DNA of 64,000 nucleotides from Burkholderiales bacterium (GTDB taxonomy: Bacteria > Pseudomonadota > Gammaproteobacteria > Burkholderiales > Casimicrobiaceae): contig JAICKU010000008.1 in NCBI GenBank assembly GCA_025927765.1, positions 1-64,000 of the forward strand, in the 5' to 3' direction. Shown in pieces: positions 5,987 to 56,842 of this stretch (its first letter is position 1; each line of letters starts with the position of its first letter). The notes under the pieces were generated by a model, which saw only the letters and a program-made list of their open reading frames with translations, did no database searches and was not told the origin of the DNA. The translations under genes were made by a program, and so were the position numbers.

Positions 5987-7630
5987 ATGCTCGCCGAAAA
6001 CGATTCCGCGGCAAGCGGCCTCGCGGAGCACGCGAAGAGGCTTCGTGCCACGCGCCTGTCCGAACTGTTCGCGCGCGACCCGCAGCGCGTGGCCGCGCTG
6101 ACGCTCGACTGGGACGACTGGCGCGTCGATCTCTCCAAGGAGCGTATCGACGAGGCCGCCCTCGCCGCCCTCCTGAAGGCGGCCGACACCGTCGGCCTGC
6201 CGAACTGGATCGCGGCGCTCTTCGCCGGCGAGAAGATCAATCTGTCCGAGCGGCGGCCGGTGCTGCACACTGCACTGCGCGCGCCCGCGTCGACGCAGGT
6301 TCTCGTCGACGGCGTCGACGTCACGCGCGAGATGCGCGCGACGCGCGAACGCATGGCGGAACTCGCGGGCGCGGTGCGCGAAGGACGCCGCAAGGGTGCG
6401 ACAGGTCGGCCGCTGCGCTTCGTCGTCAACATCGGCATCGGCGGTTCGGACCTCGGTCCCAAACTCGTCTGCGAAGCGCTCGGCGACGACGGCATGCCCG
6501 GTACGCCCGACGTCGCCTTCGTCTCGAACGTCGACCCGGAACACCTGTGGCGCACGCTCGAAGGACGCGACCCCGCGTCGACGCTCTTCGTCGTGACGTC
6601 GAAGACGTTCACCACGCAGGAGACGCTCGCGAACGCGCGAAGCGGGCGCGCATGGCTCGCGCGTGCCCTGGGCCACGAACGCGATCTCGCGCCGCACTTC
6701 ATTGCCGTGACCTCGAACATCGAGGCCGCACGCGCCTTCGGCGTGCGCGACTCCGACATCCTGCCCATGTCCGAAGGCGTCGGCGGCCGCTATTCGCTGT
6801 GGTCGGCGGTGGGCCTCGTCATCGCGCTTCGCGCCGGTTGGCAGAGCTTCGCGGAACTGCTGGACGGCGCGCAGGCGATGGACACGCATTTCCGGATGAC
6901 GCCGCCGCCCCGCAATCTTCCGGTCGTGCTCGGCCTGCTCGCGTACTGGAATTCGCGCTGGCTCGCGCATCGCCAGCGCGTCGTGGTGCCGTATGCGCAG
7001 GCGCTCGCGCTCCTGCCGTCGTTCCTGCAGCAGCTCGAGCTCGAGAGCAACGGCAAGAGCGTGCGGCGCGACGGCACGCCGGTCGACGGACCGACGGCGG
7101 CCGCACTGTGGGGCGACGTGGGCACCGACAGCCAGCACGCGTTCTTCCAGTGGCTGCACCAAGGCACATCGGAGATCCCCGTCGAGTTCGTCGTACCCGT
7201 GCGTGCGCGCCATCCGCTCGACGACCAGCAGACGCTGCTCGTCGCGAACGCGCTCGCGCAGGCGCAGGCGCTGATGAGCGGGCGCAGCGATGAGACGATC
7301 CGCGCGGAGCTCGGCACGGCGCTCTCGGGTCCCGCGCTCGACGCCGCGATCGCGGCGCGACGCAGCCCCGGCAACCGCGCGTCGACGACCCTCCTGCTGC
7401 CCATGCTCGATGCGCGAAGCCTCGGTGCGCTGCTCGCGCTCTACGAGCACCGCACGTTCGTGGAAGGCATCATGTACGGCATCAATTCGTTCGACCAGTG
7501 GGGCGTCGAGCTGGGAAAAAGCCTCGCAAAGCCGATCGTCGCGGCGTTGTCGACCCAGGCGCCACTGCCCGACGCAACCGACGCGTCGACGCGCGCGCTC
7601 GTCGCGTACGTGCAAAAGCTCCAAACGTAG
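5987..7630 (+). CDS. pgi: glucose-6-phosphate isomerase
   Basis: 547 residues, the normal length. It interconverts glucose 6-phosphate and fructose 6-phosphate in glycolysis and gluconeogenesis. Conserved blocks are [10 protein letters not shown] (about 147-156), [29 protein letters not shown] (about 265-278), [21 protein letters not shown] with the catalytic histidine, and the C-terminal [19 protein letters not shown] with the catalytic lysine. The ATG at 5987 gives a short N-terminus before the conserved [13 protein letters not shown]; earlier in-frame codons would overlap the surE promoter region. Its TAG stop lies in GTAGGGTCC, a likely relic of the repeat family described at 44211-44282. 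Confidence 0.96.
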
Positions 7631-43063: not shown

Positions 43064-45614
<2,551 letters not shown>

Positions 45615-46316: not shown

Positions 46317-48605
46317 TTGTCAAAGACGATTCCGCTCCGCCGACGCGCTGCTGCGCGACCCCGCACGAACAAGGGCGCGGACGATGCCCTTCCGGCGCCG
46401 ACGTGCGAAGCGATCCTGCATGAACTGACGGAAGCGGGCGTGCCGCTCGCGCCGGCCGAAGTCGCCGCGCGCCTCGCGATCGGCCGCAAGCAGCAGCACC
46501 TGTTCGACGCGTGCGTCGAAACGCTCGAGCGCGACGGCGAGATCCTCGTCAATCGCAAGGGCGAGCTTTGCATCGTCGCCAAGCTCGACCTGATCCGAGG
46601 CACCGTGCAGGGACATCCCGACGGCTACGGCTTCGTCGTGCCCGACGAAGGCGGCGACGATTTGTTCCTGTCGCCGCGCGAGATGCACAAGGTGCTGCAC
46701 GGCGACCGCGTCACGACGCGGCGTATCGGCTTCGACCGCCGCGGACGGCCGGAAGCGGCGATCGTCGACGTGCTCGAGCGGGCGAACCGCGAAGTGGTCG
46801 GGCGCCTGCACGAAGAGCGCGGGCTGTGGTTCGTCGAAGCGGAGAACCGGCGCATCAACCAGGACCTGCTGGTGGCGCCCGACGGGCGCATGGACGCGCA
46901 GCCCGGGCAGGTCGTCGTCGTCGAGATCGTCGAGCCGCCGTCGGAGCACGGCGAGGCCGTCGTGCGCGTCAAGGAAGTGCTGGGGAGTCCCACCGACGCG
47001 GGCATCGAAATCGAGATCGCGCTGCGCAAGCACGACCTGCCGTTCGAATGGAGCGTGGCCGCGAAGCGCCAGGCGCAGCGGCTGCCGGCGGAGGTGCGGC
47101 CGGCCGACTGCAAAGGCCGCACCGATCTCACCGACCTCGCACTCGTGACGATCGACGGCGAGACGGCGAAGGACTTCGACGACGCCGTGTATTGCGAGCC
47201 CGAAGGCCGCGGTTTCCGGCTCGTCGTCGCGATCGCCGATGTCGCGCATTACGTGCGCGATGACGACGCGCTCGACCACGACGCGCGCGAGCGCGGCACG
47301 TCGGTGTATTTCCCGCGCCGCGTGATCCCGATGCTGCCCGAGGCGCTGTCGAACGAACTGTGTTCGCTGCGCGCCGACGTCGATCGGCTGTGCATGGCCT
47401 GCGACATGAAGATCGACGCGCGCGGCGCGATCACCTCCTACGCGTTCTATCCGGCCGTCATGCATTCGCGTGCGCGGCTCACGTATACGCAGGTGTATGA
47501 GTGGCTGCGCGATCCGGCGACCGCGAAGGGCACGGTCGGTGCGCCACTGCTGCCGCATCTCGCGCAGCTCTACACGCTCTACAAGGTCCTCTTCGCCGCG
47601 CGCGAACGCCGTGGCGCAATCGATTTCGACACGGCGGAGCTCGCGCTGCAGTTCGATCCGCAGGGCAAGATCGCCGGCGTCGTGCCCGCGCCGCGCAACG
47701 ATGCGCACCGGCTGATCGAGGAATGCATGCTGGCGGCGAACGTGTGCGCGGCGAACTTCCTCACCGAGCACGAGCAGCCCGCGCTCTACCGGGTGCACGA
47801 GGGGCCGCCGCCGGAGAAGCTCGCGGCATTGCGCGAGTTCCTCGCGAGCTCGGCGCTGACGCTGACCGGCGGCGACTCGCCGACCGCGATGGACTACGCG
47901 GCGCTGATCGATCGCATTCGTGAGCGCCCCGACTTCGCCCTGCTGCAGACGGTGCTGCTGCGCTCGCTGTCGCGCGCGGAATACAGCCCCGACAACGTGG
48001 GACACTTCGGGCTCGCGTACGACGCGTATGCGCACTTCACGTCGCCCATTCGCCGCTATCCCGACCTCCTCGTGCACCGCGCGATCAAGGCGGTGCTGGC
48101 GGGGAAACGCTACACGCCCAAGGGCGCGACGTGGGCCGAGTTGGGCGTGCACTGCTCGATGACCGAGCGGCGCGCCGACGACGCATCGCGCGACGTGCTG
48201 CAGTGGCTGAAGTGCTACTACATGAAGGACCGCATCGGCGAGACGTTCGCGGGCACGATCAGCGGCGTCGCGAGCTTCGGCATCTTCGTGACGCTCGACG
48301 GGCTCGAGATCGACGGCCTCGTGCACGTCACCGATTTGCCGCGCGATTACTTCCACTTCGACGGCGTGCGCCACGCGCTGATCGGCGAGCGCACCGGCCG
48401 CGTGTTCCAGCTCGCCTCGCGCGTGCGCGTCAAGGTCGCGCGCGTCGACCTCGACCGCGCGAAGATCGACTTCACGCTCGACGAATCGGCGCAGGTCGAA
48501 AAGGCTGCCGCCGTCGGCCGGCCGACGTTCGCCGAGCCGCTTGCGCGAAGCGATGGCACGCGCCGGATCGCCAAGCGCGCGAGTCCCGGCCGGCGTCGCC
48601 AATGA
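46317..48605 (+). CDS. rnr: ribonuclease R
   Basis: 762 residues. A 3'-to-5' exoribonuclease able to digest structured RNA. The order is an N-terminal helix-turn-helix-like region (about 25-90), cold-shock domains (about 90-240, RGTVQGHPDGYGFVVPDEGG), the RNB catalytic domain with LALVTIDGETAKDFDDAVY (metal-binding aspartates) and DRLCMACDMKID, and an S1 domain near 640-720 (ISGVASFGIFVTLDGLEIDGLVHV). The basic tail is short. TTG 46317 is the only near start before the conserved region. The final ATGA overlaps serB. Confidence 0.95.
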   Translation: MSKTIPLRRRAAARPRTNKGADDALPAPTCEAILHELTEAGVPLAPAEVAARLAIGRKQQHLFDACVETLERDGEILVNRKGELCIVAKLDLIRGTVQGHPDGYGFVVPDEGGDDLFLSPREMHKVLHGDRVTTRRIGFDRRGRPEAAIVDVLERANREVVGRLHEERGLWFVEAENRRINQDLLVAPDGRMDAQPGQVVVVEIVEPPSEHGEAVVRVKEVLGSPTDAGIEIEIALRKHDLPFEWSVAAKRQAQRLPAEVRPADCKGRTDLTDLALVTIDGETAKDFDDAVYCEPEGRGFRLVVAIADVAHYVRDDDALDHDARERGTSVYFPRRVIPMLPEALSNELCSLRADVDRLCMACDMKIDARGAITSYAFYPAVMHSRARLTYTQVYEWLRDPATAKGTVGAPLLPHLAQLYTLYKVLFAARERRGAIDFDTAELALQFDPQGKIAGVVPAPRNDAHRLIEECMLAANVCAANFLTEHEQPALYRVHEGPPPEKLAALREFLASSALTLTGGDSPTAMDYAALIDRIRERPDFALLQTVLLRSLSRAEYSPDNVGHFGLAYDAYAHFTSPIRRYPDLLVHRAIKAVLAGKRYTPKGATWAELGVHCSMTERRADDASRDVLQWLKCYYMKDRIGETFAGTISGVASFGIFVTLDGLEIDGLVHVTDLPRDYFHFDGVRHALIGERTGRVFQLASRVRVKVARVDLDRAKIDFTLDESAQVEKAAAVGRPTFAEPLARSDGTRRIAKRASPGRRRQ

Positions 48606-49456
48606 AACTGGCGAATGCCGATCTCGTGATCCAGGCGCCGCAGGTCCTGCGCGAGGATCTCGAGATCCTGCGCCTGATGACCGGCGCGCAAGGGGTCGAG
48701 CCGCTCGCGCGCGCGCAGTGCGACGCGTATCGGCTGCGCGAGCCCGATGCGCTCGCAGGCGTCGCCGAGGCGTGCACGGCAGCCGGCTACGACTTCGCGG
48801 TGGTGCCGCACGCGCGCACGCTCGACCGCGTGCGCCTCGTCGCGCTCGACATGGATTCGACGCTGATCACGATCGAGTGCATCGACGAGATCGCGCATCT
48901 GCAGGGCATCGGGCCGCAGGTCGCGGCGGTGACCGCGGCGGCGATGCGCGGCGAGATCGACTTTCGCGAAAGCCTCGCGCGCCGCGTCGCGCTCCTCGCG
49001 GGCCTGCCGCTCGACGCGCTCGAGCGCGTCTACGACGAACGGCTGCAGCTGTCGCCGGGTGCAAAGCGGCTGTTCGAAACGCTGCGCGACGTGCGCGCGC
49101 AAACGCTGCTCGTCTCGGGGGGCTTCACGTTCTTCACCGATCGCCTGCGCGTGCGGCTCGGCATCGACCACGTGCTCGCGAACACGCTCGAAGTCGCCGA
49201 AGGGCGGCTGACCGGGCGCGTCGTCGGCGACATCGTCGACGCCGACGCGAAGGCAAACGCGTTCTCCAGACTCGCCGAACGCTGCCGCGGAGACGAGGGG
49301 GCCGCCGTCGCGATCGGCGACGGCGCGAACGACGTGCCGATGCTGAAGCGCGCCGACGTATCGGTCGCGTACCACGCGAAGCCCATCGTGCGTGCGCATG
49401 CCACACACGCGATCGACCACTGCGGTCTCGACGCAGCGCTGAACCTCTTCGCCTGA
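48602..49456 (+). CDS. serB: phosphoserine phosphatase
   Basis: 284 residues. It dephosphorylates phosphoserine in the last step of serine synthesis. An ACT-like N-terminal region (about 1-75) precedes the HAD phosphatase core with the nucleophile D83 in ALDMDSTLI, ECIDEIA in the cap, LVSGGFTFF, and GDGANDVPML. The start ATG 48602 overlaps the rnr stop. Serine made here feeds CysE, encoded nearby on the other strand. The stop is three bases before a GGGTCGGACTCC repeat. Confidence 0.95.
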   Translation: MKLANADLVIQAPQVLREDLEILRLMTGAQGVEPLARAQCDAYRLREPDALAGVAEACTAAGYDFAVVPHARTLDRVRLVALDMDSTLITIECIDEIAHLQGIGPQVAAVTAAAMRGEIDFRESLARRVALLAGLPLDALERVYDERLQLSPGAKRLFETLRDVRAQTLLVSGGFTFFTDRLRVRLGIDHVLANTLEVAEGRLTGRVVGDIVDADAKANAFSRLAERCRGDEGAAVAIGDGANDVPMLKRADVSVAYHAKPIVRAHATHAIDHCGLDAALNLFA

Positions 49457-49458
49457 AA

Positions 49459-49514
49459 AGCAGGGTCGGACTCCATGATTCGTCCTCGACAAATCAGTGG
49501 AGTCCGACCCTGCT
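49459..49514. repeat. intact GGGTCGGACTCC inverted-repeat element between serB and iscA
   Basis: Arms AGCAGGGTCGGACTCCA (49459-49475) and TGGAGTCCGACCCTGCT (49498-49514) are perfect 17-base complements with a 22-base loop. The inner twelve bases are identical to the hisZ-purA element; the outer bases differ by compensated changes (GTAGGG/CCCTAC to GCAGGG/CCCTGC). It lies between convergent genes and could serve as a terminator for both. Confidence 0.85.
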
Positions 49515-49526
49515 CAGGACCTCGTT

Positions 49527-49850
49527 TCAGACGTTGAACGACTCGCCGCAGCCGCACGAATCGCGGACGTTCGGGTTCGTGAAGCGAAACGCCGCGTTCA
49601 ACCCGTCGCGCGTGTAATCGAGCTCGGTCCCTTCGAGCATCGGCAGGCTCTTCAGGTCCACCAGGATGCGCACGCCGTGGCTTTCGAATTCGGCATCGCC
49701 AGGGCGCACCTCGTCCGCGTACTCCACGTCGTACGCGAAGCCCGAGCATCCGGACCTTCGTACGCCGAGACGCAATCCGACGCCCTTGCCACGTTTCGCG
49801 AGATGGGCGGCGACGTGACGCGCCGCGCTTTCCGTCAGGGTGATGGCCAT
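49527..49850 (-). CDS. iscA: iron-sulfur assembly protein IscA
   Basis: 107 residues, A-type carrier. The three ligand cysteines are present in SGCSGF and at the C-terminal DSCGCGESF. IscA receives or delivers clusters or iron. The ATG at 49850 lies inside the last codons of iscU (16-base overlap). It is the last gene of the operon. In most relatives hscB, hscA and fdx follow, but here the next gene is the convergent serB. Confidence 0.95.
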   Translation of the reverse strand: MAITLTESAARHVAAHLAKRGKGVGLRLGVRRSGCSGFAYDVEYADEVRPGDAEFESHGVRILVDLKSLPMLEGTELDYTRDGLNAAFRFTNPNVRDSCGCGESFNV

Positions 49851-50260
49851 TTGAGTGGTTCCACAGGTTTCGCCGCTTCGCGTTCCGCGTGCTTGCCGCG
49901 GTAGTCGGCAACCGCATCGCGTATCGCGTCGAAGGCGAGGATCGAACAATGGAGGCGCTCGGGCGGCAGCGCAAGCGCCGAGGCGAGATCGGCGTGGCCG
50001 ATGGCGAGCGCGTCGTCGAGCGAGCGGCCCTTCAGCCATTCGGTCGCAAGCGATGCGCACGCGATCGCCGCAGGACTGCCCTGCGTGCGGAATCGCGTGT
50101 CGGCGATCGCGCCGTCGCCGCCGACCTTGATCTGCAACTTCACGACGTCGCCGCCGGGCGCGCCTGCGCGCCCGGTGCCGACGTTCGCATCGTCGGCGGC
50201 GAACGCGCCGACGTTGCGCGGCCGTGCGAAATGGTCGAGCAGGAGCTCGCTATGAGCCAT
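49835..50260 (-). CDS. iscU: variant IscU scaffold lacking two ligand cysteines
   Basis: 141 residues, clearly homologous to IscU along its length ([58 protein letters not shown]). Of the four usual cluster-site residues, the first cysteine (E. coli C37 in APACGD) is gone, reading APGGD with one residue deleted; the aspartate remains as D38; the second cysteine (C63 in GCGSAI) is S62 in GSPAAI; the third remains as C105. A new cysteine C68 lies six residues after S62. The HscA recognition motif LPPVK reads LPPER (98-102). ATG 50260 overlaps iscS by 11 bases. Scaffold activity may be altered or absent. Confidence 0.9.
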
Positions 50261-51482
50261 GCGCAACCTCGGCTTCGCGCGGCGTCGCGCCCGCGGCAGC
50301 GAAACGCCCGCGCGCTTCGCGCGCTTCCCACAGCGGCGACAGCTCGCGCAATCGCGCGACCTGCTCGCGTATGCGCGCGATCGCGAAATCGATCTCGTCT
50401 TCGGTGCTGAAGCGCCCGACGGTGAAGCGGATCGACGCGTGCGCGAGCTCGTCGCTGCGCCCGAGGGCGCGCAGCACGTACGACGGCTCGACCGACGCCG
50501 ACGTGCATGCCGAGCCCGACGACACCGCGATGTCGGCGAGCGCGAGCAGCAGGCTCTCGCCTTCGACGTAACCGAAGGTCAGGTTCAGGTTGTGTGCGAT
50601 GCGCTGCGCGAGATCGCCGTTGACGTACACGTCGTCGAGATCGCGAAGACCCGCCCACAGGCGATCGCGAAGCGCGCGGATGCGCGCGTTGTCTGCGTCC
50701 ATCTCGAGCTCTGCGACCCGATACGCCTCGCCCATGCCGACGATCTGGTGCGTGGGCAGCGTTCCCGAGCGCAATCCGCGCTCGTGGCCCCCGCCGTGCA
50801 TCTGCGCCTCGAGCCGCGCACGCGGCTTGCGCCGCACGAACAGCGCGCCGATGCCCTTCGGGCCGTACGTCTTGTGCGCCGAGAACGACATGAGGTCGAC
50901 GGGCAGCGTCGCGAGGTCGATCGGCACCTTGCCGGTCGCCTGCGCGCTGTCGACGTGGAACACGATGCCGCGCGCGCGGCACAGCGCGCCGATCGCCGCG
51001 ATGTCCTGCACGACGCCGATCTCGTTGTTGACGTACATGACCGACACGAGCGTGGTGTCGGCGCGCAGAGCAGCTTCGAGGCGCGCAAGATCGAGCAAAC
51101 CGTCGGCCGCGACGTCGAGGTACGTCACCTCGAAGCCCTCGCGCTCGAGCTCGCGCATCGTGTCGAGCGTCGCCTTGTGCTCGGTGCACACCGTCACGAG
51201 ATGGCGTCCCTTGGCGGCATGGAAATGCGCGCTGCCCTTCAGCGCCAGGTTGATGGACTCGGTGGCGCCCGACGTGAACACCAGTTCCCGCGCCTCGCAG
51301 CCGACGAGCGACGCGATGCTCTCGCGCGCGGCCTCGACCGCCGCCTCCGCGTCGCGGCCGTACTCGTGCGAGCGCGACGCCGGGTTGCCGTAGCGCTCGC
51401 ACAGGAACGGAATCATCGCCGCCGCGACCCGCGGATCGACGGGCGTGGTGGCCGAATAGTCGAGGTAGATCGGAAGATGCAT
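50250..51482 (-). CDS. iscS: cysteine desulfurase IscS
   Basis: 410 residues. It takes sulfur from cysteine using pyridoxal phosphate. The PLP lysine is in [12 protein letters not shown], the N-terminal [14 protein letters not shown] is standard, EHKA and [10 protein letters not shown] are the cofactor contacts, and the mobile-loop cysteine is C326 in [10 protein letters not shown]. It appears fully active, unlike its partner IscU. ATG 51482 (with AGGA upstream) is 14 bases after iscR. The C-terminal tail is longer than in E. coli and Ala/Arg-rich. Confidence 0.95.
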
Positions 51483-51496
51483 CGGCAATGTCCTGA

Positions 51497-51964
51497 CTAA
51501 GCCTGCGCGGCCGCGCGCGGCGGCCGTTCGTCATGCAGCACGGCAACCTCGCAGGGCGACGTGCGCTGCTGGCGCACGAGCTCGGCGAGCGTCACCGATT
51601 GGAGGTACGCGAGGATGCAATCGTTGAGGCCCGCCCACAGTCCGTGCGTCATGCACCGGCGATCGTCGTGGCAGTTCTCGCGCCCGCGACACTGCGTCGC
51701 ATCGATGGGCTCGTCGACGGCAAGCATGATGTCCGCGACCGCGAGGCGCTCCGGCGCGCGGCCCAGCGTGTAGCCCCCGCCCGGCCCGCGCACGCTCTCG
51801 ACGAGGCCACTGCGCCGCAGCTTGCAGAAGAGCTGCTCGAGGTACGCGAGCGAGATCTTCTGCCGCTCCGCGATCGCGGACAGCGTCACCGGCCCCGCAC
51901 TGCCGTGCAGCGCGACGTCGAGCATGGCGGTGACCGCGAAGCGTCCCTTGGTCGTCAGGCGCAT
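51497..51964 (-). CDS. iscR: Rrf2-family iron-sulfur regulator IscR
   Basis: 155 residues. The Rrf2 winged helix begins [16 protein letters not shown], with [19 protein letters not shown] as the recognition region and [10 protein letters not shown]. Cluster ligands C92, C98 and C104 lie in [14 protein letters not shown], so it can bind a 2Fe-2S cluster and repress isc transcription when the cluster is available. It leads the isc genes, 47 bases after cysE, with which it may share transcripts. An AT-rich stretch upstream (TTGATGATTTGTTCAAGG) may hold its promoter and self-binding site. Confidence 0.94.
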
Positions 51965-52011: not shown

Positions 52012-52767
52012 CTATTCGAACATGCGGTTGATCTGCCGCGGGTCAAATGCATCGGCCACTTCTTTCGCCGACGTGCAGTCGACGCCTTCCTGCTGCAAAA
52101 GCGAGCAGAGCCGATCGAAGCGCTCCTCGGTCGCCGCGGCGTGCTCGAGGAGCTTGTGGATCGCCTGCACGACGGGATCGTCCATGTCGGACGAGATCGC
52201 GTAGGCCGAAAAGCCCAGCTTCGCGGCCTGCGCCTCGTGGCGGTCGCGGTCGGATTCGGTGAGCGTGCGTGCGGGAATGCCGACAGCCGTCGCGCCGGAC
52301 GGGACATCGCGCACCACCACCGCGTTCGAGCCGATCTTCGCCGCGTCGCCGATATGGATCGGTCCGAGGATCTTTGCGCCGGCGCCGACGACGACGCCCC
52401 TGCCGAGCGTCGGGTGCCGCTTGCCCTTGTTCCACGACGTGCCGCCGAGCGTGACGCCGTGATAGAGCGTCGTGTCGTCGCCGATTTCCGCCGTTTCGCC
52501 GACGACGACGCCCATGCCGTGGTCGATGAACACGCGCCGGCCGATGCGCGCGCCGGGATGGATCTCGATGCCGGTCCCGAAGCGGCTCCAGTGCGCGAGC
52601 CAGCGCGCGAGCCAGCGCAGGCCCATCCGCCACGCGGGATGCACGACGACGCGATGCCACACGAGCGCATGCAGGCCCGGGTAGCAGGTCAGTACCTCCC
52701 ACCAGGTGCGCGCCGCGGGGTCGCGCTCGAACACGACACGGATGTCTTCGCGCAGGCGATCGAACAT
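52012..52767 (-). CDS. cysE: serine O-acetyltransferase
   Basis: 251 residues. It acetylates serine to O-acetylserine, the acceptor for sulfide in cysteine synthesis. The protein has the short N-terminus of EpsC/NifP-type enzymes and a left-handed beta-helix with hexapeptide repeats ([42 protein letters not shown]). Catalytic His and Asp lie in FIDHG and in YHGVTLGGT. Cysteine made from its product is the substrate of IscS encoded just downstream, so the order cysE-iscR-iscS makes metabolic sense. Confidence 0.95.
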
Positions 52768-55710: not shown

Positions 55711-55720
<10 letters not shown>

Positions 55721-55739
55721 GGTCCGACCCTACTTTTCC
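55711..55739. repeat. 29-base palindrome shared by two convergent stop codons
   Basis: GGAAAAGTAGGGTC (55711-55724), a central C, and GACCCTACTTTTCC (55726-55739) are perfect 14-base complements. suhB ends GAA AAG TAG on the plus strand and the AI-2E gene ends GAA AAG TAG on the minus strand, both in this palindrome. It looks like the outer arms of the GGGTCGGACTCC element joined after loss of the inner stem. The hairpin flanked by A-runs and T-runs would work as a bidirectional terminator. Confidence 0.85.
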
Positions 55740-56842
55740 CGCTCCACGCTCCGAAGCTCGGCCCACTCGGCAATCAGCGCGTAGCCGACCGCGAGCAGCA
55801 CGGGTCCGAGGAACACGCCGATCGCACCGAACGCGATCGCGCCGCCGAGCACGCCGAGCAGCACGAGCAGGAACGGCAGCACCGCGCCGCGGCTGATGAT
55901 GAGCGGCTTGATCACGTTGTCGATCGTCGACACGGCGAACACCCCCCACAGCAGCACGAAGATCCCCCACGCGGTCTCGCCCGAATTGATGAGCCACAGG
56001 CCCGCCGGCGCCCATACGAGCGGCGGTCCGACGGGCACCGGCGACAGCACGAACGTGAGGAGGCCGAGAAGCGGCGCCGCGGCGATGCCGGCGATCCAGA
56101 AGCCGATCGCCGCGACCACGCCCTGCACGAGTGCGGTGCCGAGGATGCCGAGCACCACGCCGCGCACGGTCAGCGTGGCGACGGTGGCAAGATGCGCGCC
56201 GCGCTCGCCCGCGATGCGCCGCGCCGCCACCTGCAGCCGCTCGGCGATCGCGTAGCCGTCGCGAAACATGAACCACGCGATGAAGATCGACAGCGCGAGC
56301 TGCAGCAGCGCGCCGACCACCGACGCGCCCGAGGCCACCGCGAACTTGCGCAGCGGATCGAGGTACTGCGACAGCACCGCGAGCATTTGCGCGGTGTCGT
56401 GCGCCATGCCGTTCCAGTACGCGGCGATCGTCGCGCCGATCCAGGGCAGCGACGCGATCCAAGGCGGCGCTTCCGGCGGCCCGCCCGCGAGCGCCGCCCT
56501 CACCCACGCCACCACGCGCTCGGCGTTGTCCGCGATCGTCGCGCCCACGACGACGAACGGCGCGAGCATCAGGAGGGCGAGCACGAGCACCATCGCGAGC
56601 GCGGCGAGCGCATCGCGGCCGCCGAGGCGCACGTGCAGGCGCACGTAGAGCGGCCACGTCGTCGTGCACAGGATCGCCGCCCAGACGAGCGCGGTCAGGA
56701 ACGGCTGCAGCACGAGGTAGCAGCCGCCGATCAGCATCGCCAGCACGGCAAGCGTCAGGATCTGGTCGATCCGCGAAGGCGCTTCAACGACGCTTCGCGC
56801 TTCCCGCTGCGCGGCCTCCTCGGGATGCCCTTTCAGATGCAT
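55730..56842 (-). CDS. AI-2E family transporter (permease)
   Basis: 370 residues with seven or eight membrane helices: paired helices at about 27-65, one at 80-105, then a soluble part (105-150), and four to five in the C-terminal half (for example ALVQGVVAAIGFWIAGI, LLGLLTFVLSPVPVGPPLVW, FAVSTIDNVIKPLIISRG). The PVGPPLVW and DNVIKPLII blocks are typical of the AI-2E/PerM family. Members have been linked to autoinducer-2 export or Na+/H+ exchange, so the substrate is open. Converges with suhB, and the hybrid kinase gene precedes it by 69 bases. Confidence 0.9.
   Translation of the reverse strand: MHLKGHPEEAAQREARSVVEAPSRIDQILTLAVLAMLIGGCYLVLQPFLTALVWAAILCTTTWPLYVRLHVRLGGRDALAALAMVLVLALLMLAPFVVVGATIADNAERVVAWVRAALAGGPPEAPPWIASLPWIGATIAAYWNGMAHDTAQMLAVLSQYLDPLRKFAVASGASVVGALLQLALSIFIAWFMFRDGYAIAERLQVAARRIAGERGAHLATVATLTVRGVVLGILGTALVQGVVAAIGFWIAGIAAAPLLGLLTFVLSPVPVGPPLVWAPAGLWLINSGETAWGIFVLLWGVFAVSTIDNVIKPLIISRGAVLPFLLVLLGVLGGAIAFGAIGVFLGPVLLAVGYALIAEWAELRSVEREK

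Follow-up and report, generated by a model that had tools for sequence, protein, structure and literature searches.

IscU is the normally essential scaffold for iron-sulfur (Fe-S) clusters, and its textbook definition rests on three cluster cysteines. What role is left to an IscU homologue that lacks two of them and is still encoded in an open frame between iscS and iscA? Such a gene, here iscU* (protein IscU*), lies in a 64,000-nucleotide stretch (the window; contig JAICKU010000008.1, positions 1 to 64,000) of a draft genome from the order Burkholderiales (GCA_025927765.1; 4.0 Mb, 148 contigs, 95.6% complete, 2.1% contaminated), where the isc locus sits on an 82.5-kb contig. We compared the gene and its neighbourhood with relatives in its own family and across the order. 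We propose, with a probability of about 0.58, that IscU* is a former scaffold turned non-scaffold, a "pseudo-scaffold" that most likely partners the cysteine desulfurase IscS and influences either IscS activity or the choice of acceptor. The loss of the scaffold role is well supported; the partnership with IscS we infer from retained residues and gene arrangement.

IscU* has a predicted IscU fold and lacks two cluster ligands

From an ATG at 50260 to a stop codon at 49835–49837 (Table 1), the iscU* reading frame is unbroken and free of the frameshifts by which a pseudogene would be recognized. Alignment to E. coli IscU (PDB 2l4x) confirmed what an initial sequence-only reading of the window had noticed: the equivalents of C37 and C63 are missing, C105 and D38 (IscU* numbering) are present, and the LPPVK motif has become LPPER. 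That reading also spoke of clean residue replacement in an intact frame, which stands for the frame and for C63 (Ser62 in IscU*) but not for C37, which was lost by a one-codon deletion (GAPACGDV to GAPG-GDV) with no substitution. Retained are D39, H105 and C106 of the E. coli protein (D38, H104 and C105 in IscU*), C106 being the sole cysteine left among the ligands C37, C63 and C106; an extra cysteine, Cys68, lies at E. coli position 69. The aligned relatives are canonical throughout, with C37, D39, C63, H105, C106 and LPPVK present in 39/39. IscU* alters 28 of the 84 columns that are invariant among them, against a leave-one-out maximum of two for any relative, and on this alignment its change exceeds ordinary drift.

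On the NCBIfam model for IscU (TIGR01999), IscU* scored 141.1 bits (E 1.8e-41), short of the cut-off of 192.4; the canonical IscU of a relative (G014), used as a control, reached 221 bits. AlphaFold predicted an IscU fold (pLDDT 91.4, pTM 0.82) which matches, among other PDB entries, human ISCU (5wkp) and E. coli IscU (3lvl), the latter with 57% identity over the aligned part, and because the input alignment consisted of IscU homologues, the model indicates compatibility with this fold and is no proof of it. Fold, identity and position between iscS and iscA tie IscU* to the IscU scaffold (TIGR01999/Pfam NifU_N), whereas the loss of two of three ligand cysteines and of LPPVK, the score under the cut-off and a genome in which HscA and HscB were not found set it apart. 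Judged on these features, IscU* is best regarded as a protein with the IscU fold that does not qualify as an IscU scaffold by the criteria that define one. SufU, the zinc-bound sulfur-transfer protein of SUF systems with three conserved cysteines as zinc ligands, belongs to the same superfamily and partners a cysteine desulfurase but is not the main scaffold; IscU* differs from it in score (41.1 bits on TIGR01994, cut-off 92.5), in lacking the C37/C63 equivalents and in its location in the isc operon. Within the family, 56 of the 64 genomes searched gave a match to IscU* at 1e-12 or better, and the only full-length match above 60% identity was the window's own.

Sequencing or assembly error, a natural suspicion in a draft of 148 contigs, is an extremely improbable source of these changes: the replacements are dispersed, leave the frame intact and lie on a contig of 82.5 kb, they come together with the one-codon deletion, the loss of hscBA-fdx from the locus and a changed IscS tail, and the same kind of change occurs in other genomes. 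The sequence-only reading had further suggested that C68, C105, H104 and D38 form an alternative set of metal or Fe-S ligands. All four potential ligands are indeed present, but C68 is private to the window's genome (Ser in 39/39 relatives, Ala in 40 of 44 variants of a second family described below) and would lie, in the model, within helix 63–76, six residues beyond the lost ligand. Moreover, searches of the genome turned up neither hscA nor hscB, the locus lacks fdx, and the second-family variants lose further ligands, which makes this proposal very improbable.

Table 1. The isc locus and its flanks in the window
Feature	Position	Strand	Description
serB	48605..49456	+	TIGR00338, 219.3 bits, above cut-off; convergent to iscA, flanks the missing hscBA-fdx segment
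iscA-serB gap	49457..49526		70 nt; site of hscA in G014, G015 and G019; contains an inverted repeat
iscA	49527..49850	-	A-type carrier; TIGR02011, 152.5 bits, above cut-off (150.6)
iscU*	49835..50260	-	IscU homologue, 141 aa, without C37 and C63 (E. coli numbering); LPPVK changed to LPPER
iscS	50250..51482	-	Cysteine desulfurase; TIGR02006, 652.6 bits, above cut-off (643.2)
iscR	51497..51964	-	Rrf2 regulator; TIGR02010, 203.8 bits, just below cut-off (207.55)
cysE	52012..52767	-	Serine O-acetyltransferase; TIGR01172, 247.8 bits, above cut-off

A shortened isc operon beside a complete SUF system

The operon reads iscR-iscS-iscU*-iscA downstream of cysE, which is upstream of the isc operon also in G002, G011, G014, G015 and G019. 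The genes iscS and iscU* overlap by 11 nt, and the start of iscA overlaps the end of iscU*. IscA keeps its three cysteines (GCSGFAY, CGCGESF), and in alignment IscR retains the three cluster cysteines and the histidine. IscS carries the SPLW stretch, after which its sequence differs from the relatives: the C-terminal tail, of the type EGIDLxTVQWAAH in G002, G014, G015 and G019, has been replaced.

Absent from the locus are hscB, hscA and fdx, with iscA and serB only a short gap apart (Table 1). The serB synteny is common to the window, G011, G014, G015 and G019; in the last three hscA sits between iscA and serB, and the G014 locus additionally has the ISC ferredoxin gene (fdx) and an hscB-sized J-domain ORF. 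The inverted repeat in the gap may have mediated the deletion of hscBA-fdx. Between genes, short inverted repeats of a shared type, built from AGGGTCGGACTCC and its complement or from a close variant of these, were observed at 49457–49526, at about 44205–44300 and at 55712–55740.

Genome-wide searches of the 95.6% complete window genome gave no match over the cut-off to HscA or HscB. The HscA-like sequence with the best score is a DnaK fragment at the end of a contig. This HscA search covered the window's genome and 60 relatives; the second family was judged by hscA adjacency at the locus. A SUF operon is present, with sufB, sufC, sufD, sufS and the SufU gene each over the curated NCBIfam cut-off, and its SufU has three cysteines (168.7 bits on TIGR01994). 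Looking for a second IscU or a SUF system had been suggested at the outset: SUF is complete, and the genome holds no second canonical IscU, the sole other NifU_N match being the SufU of this operon. Because HscA and HscB were not found, SUF is present and the ligand change recurs with hscA absence (see below), the non-scaffold role, one of several options in the sequence-only reading, is the one best supported.

Gene content across the window's family

The relatives show which gene combinations occur around this state. A five-genome tree places G014 as sister to the window's genome (a 117-row IscS+IscA tree joins these two and four others in an unresolved fork). G014 combines a full ISC operon, located on two contigs whose ends overlap exactly, with SUF and a canonical IscU. 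G002, G015 and G019, from the same genus, have ISC with hscA, and the SufB search gave no match in them. In G011, also of this genus, SUF occurs with iscR, iscS and iscA, and there is no iscU at the isc locus. Among the 18 genomes with SufB over the cut-off, three carry a canonical IscU (G014 and G077 by residues, G044 by score only, at 86% identity), one carries IscU*, and in 14 a search with the window's IscU* gave nothing at 1e-12 or better. Since canonical IscU persists in SUF-bearing G014, G077 and G044, SUF alone does not cause ligand loss.

G018 has SUF and gave no IscS match at 1e-60 and no IscU match at 1e-12. G010, likewise with no IscS match at 1e-60, carries iscR-iscA beside its SUF cluster, an arrangement reminiscent of a SUF operon that has taken over the ISC regulator and carrier; at L134 (5503–11624) the two genes stand directly upstream of sufBCDSU. 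SUF with iscR, iscS and iscA and without iscU was observed at L159 (5904–8001, G011) and L160 (5853–8021, G069), and the IscS tails of both genomes also depart from the canonical tail. Because these SUF-bearing genomes retain iscS and iscA without iscU, the role of IscU* would be a dispensable one.

We hypothesize the following path. The lineage would have gained a complete SUF system and then lost hscB-hscA-fdx from its isc operon; IscU would next have lost ligand C37 and, in the window's genome, C63. In the remaining module, iscR-iscS-iscU*-iscA, an IscU-fold protein may still meet IscS and modulate how active that enzyme is or which sulfur acceptor it serves, while no longer assembling clusters.

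C37 loss recurs in a second family

A screen of the order gave a match in 280 of 399 genomes, eight of which, besides the window's, had a best E worse than 1e-60. In this screen, residues were read for these eight only (among the rest, milder variants lacking C37 may have gone unnoticed, and an IscU* that has diverged very far may count as absent): C37 is missing in three (G265, G323 and G406), another four are canonical, and the last is a fragment. The three belong to one family, different from the window's, in which 253 of 268 searched genomes gave a match. Here C37 was missing in 51 of the 76 genomes read, namely in 44 of a mostly low-scoring set of 48 and in seven more among 29 high-scoring loci (21 canonical; one, G521, already counted, so that this set added 28 genomes); because the 48 were picked mostly for low IscU scores, these frequencies are no estimate of prevalence. 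The window's IscU* arose independently of these variants. Aligning IscU variants across the order, an early suggestion, has thus shown both uniformly canonical relatives and a recurrent loss of C37 elsewhere.

We labelled 120 IscU loci (window included), 52 without C37 and 68 with it. Among the former, D39 is gone in 44, C63 in 13, C106 in 11 and H105 in two; loss of any of these four residues was found in 0/68 of the latter. Seven of the 44 low-scoring variants have no cysteine anywhere. Eight of nine second-family variants tested fall under the TIGR01999 cut-off, and G624 (200 bits) passes. A SufU-like second match occurs in 42 of the 44 variant genomes (exceptions G504 and G668) and in 0/4 canonical genomes of the same 48-genome set. 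Around this match, SUF genes were present in 12/12 sampled variant genomes, with sufB seen in ten; in the other two the contig starts inside the SUF cluster. In a locus with hscA and fdx (L268, G664, 6694–7073), what appears to be a frameshift near residue 36, either a sequencing error or real, divides a canonical iscU in two.

The residue counts bear on the idea that the protein only relays sulfur, C105 (E. coli C106) taking persulfide sulfur from IscS and handing it on with no cluster assembly. IscU* has kept C105, H104 and D38, and among the C37-less homologues H105 persists in 50/52 and C106 in 41/52. Eight of the 52, however, lack C63 and C106 in addition to C37, and in E. coli C106 is reported to be buried and furthest from the IscS loop, with C37 the proposed first sulfur acceptor (PMC2854127). 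Because of these eight, and of the variants with no cysteine at all, a relay cannot be the general role. In the window, where C105 is kept, it is conceivable, as the sequence-only reading had it, and we consider it improbable.

C37 loss coincides with the absence of hscA

The two features go together at the locus level. hscA is adjacent to 0/46 C37-less loci that have at least 2 kb downstream (window included) and to 64/68 loci with C37, the other four of which (G001, G035, G068 and G698) end too soon; downstream sequence was also too short for a label at C37-less G507, G557, G558, G559, G563 and G668, and the positive labels of G022, G028, G043 and G057 come from the genome-wide HscA search. 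Where both labels exist they coincide (110/110 loci). In the 117-row IscS+IscA tree, built by a quick method and leaving out G004 and G065 (short) and G668 (no IscA), C37 and hscA each change five times. Independent pairs agree in 3/3 cases on well-supported branches (five pairs on the whole tree), a test that is non-significant (p 0.25) because the pairs are too few. A single genus (g184, four species read) contains both states: C37 and hscA are present in G638 and G640, and neither is in G639 and G642.

Loss of the HscA motif was considered as a hallmark of the change and ruled out. In the 44 variants, which lack an adjacent hscA, the LPPVK positions are better kept (mean retention 0.78) than the ligand site (0.51). 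Since the motif is mostly kept where hscA is not nearby, it may serve a purpose beyond HscA, perhaps contact with IscS via K103.

Selection maintains the recurrent variants

One-ratio codon models gave omega values of 0.093, 0.176, 0.094, 0.119 and 0.091 for IscU* in five second-family clades of 8, 7 (five cysteine-free), 7, 5 and 3 species, respectively (G504 and G511 were excluded from the g163 estimate, and that for g179 comes from three sequences with one saturated branch, dS 4.1). Omega = 1 was rejected in all five (LRT 109–260). In the same clades the neighbours had lower values, 0.041–0.064 for IscS and 0.026–0.057 for IscA; canonical IscU on the background branches of the window's genus had an omega of 0.067. 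The second-family variants are maintained by purifying selection and are less constrained than IscS and IscA, so they probably have a different job beside IscS.

Does this extend to the window's own copy? It could instead be a young relic, drifting to loss after SUF took over and hscBA-fdx was deleted, its frame open by chance or through translational coupling to iscA. Such decay would fit the 28 changed columns among 84 otherwise invariant ones, the degenerate IscS tail, the overlap of iscU* with both iscS and iscA, and SUF-bearing G011 of the same genus, whose isc locus lacks iscU. When neutral evolution was simulated with substitutions but without indels, 14–33% of copies were still free of stops at 25–40% amino-acid divergence. 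The intact frame, which the sequence-only reading had held against random decay, is therefore a weak argument by itself and no proof of function; a better one comes from the recurrent variants, whose omega is far under 1 and which are clearly under selection. On the window branch, too, omega = 1 is rejected (LRT 81), though dS reached its bound and the branch may have turned neutral late (because of the bound the branch estimate of 0.020 is unusable, and only the test against omega = 1 was kept). The substitutions also fall less often on invariant than on variable columns (28/84 vs 27/49, p 0.018), and no frameshift has accumulated. We regard a relic as doubtful and, from these patterns in the sequence, a function of the window copy as likely.

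A probable link to IscS

In the E. coli complex, IscU is described as contacting the C-terminal helix Arg379–Lys391 of IscS, IscS(del 376–404) fails to bind it, and Y3 and G38 of IscU are among the residues in contact (PMC2854127). E. coli IscU is also reported to compete with TusA on IscS and to alter IscS activity (PMC11302665). Among the second-family variants, Y3 and G38 are kept in 44/44 and H105 in 42/44, though the ten IscS-contact positions as a whole have a mean retention of 0.68, just slightly above the 0.57 of other canonical invariants. Their genes also overlap iscS in 24/44 cases, against 0/8 canonical loci measured. Because Y3, G38 and H105 are retained, iscS and iscU* overlap and IscU competes with TusA in E. 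coli, these proteins are most plausibly IscS partners that build no clusters.

The window's protein may share this role, with a looser hold. It retains five of the ten contact positions (changed are Y3H, Y11F, K59R, Y61Q and G64P; K103R is a further change) and, because the IscS tail is replaced as well, its grip on IscS may be weakened and weaker than in the second family. The most divergent second-family variants also have eroded IscS tails.

A broader version of the proposal is offered tentatively, at less than even odds: that bacteria of this order in which SUF has taken over from ISC carry a class of pseudo-scaffold IscU proteins, some of them cysteine-free, selected as IscS-bound regulators of sulfur traffic, and that the loss of C37 would be an adaptive first step, stopping dead-end cluster assembly once HscBA is lost.

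Significance

Of the two systems, ISC and SUF, most bacteria reportedly have just one (PMC11559095). Mycobacterium tuberculosis, described as a SUF organism that keeps iscS alone from ISC (PMC10848736), resembles the window's genome in joining SUF to a partial ISC, but has no iscU, whereas the window's genome keeps an altered iscU* with iscR and iscA. Among the top-ranked literature matches (titles and abstract openings), we found no description of a ligand-less IscU kept beside SUF. The window's genus offers a graded natural series of how one essential machinery gives way to another, from ISC alone through ISC with SUF, iscRSU*A with SUF and iscRS-A with SUF to SUF without iscS or iscU. That a C37-less, partly cysteine-free class recurs and is kept by purifying selection suggests a second role for IscU, independent of its cysteines, that persists once Fe-S assembly is gone.
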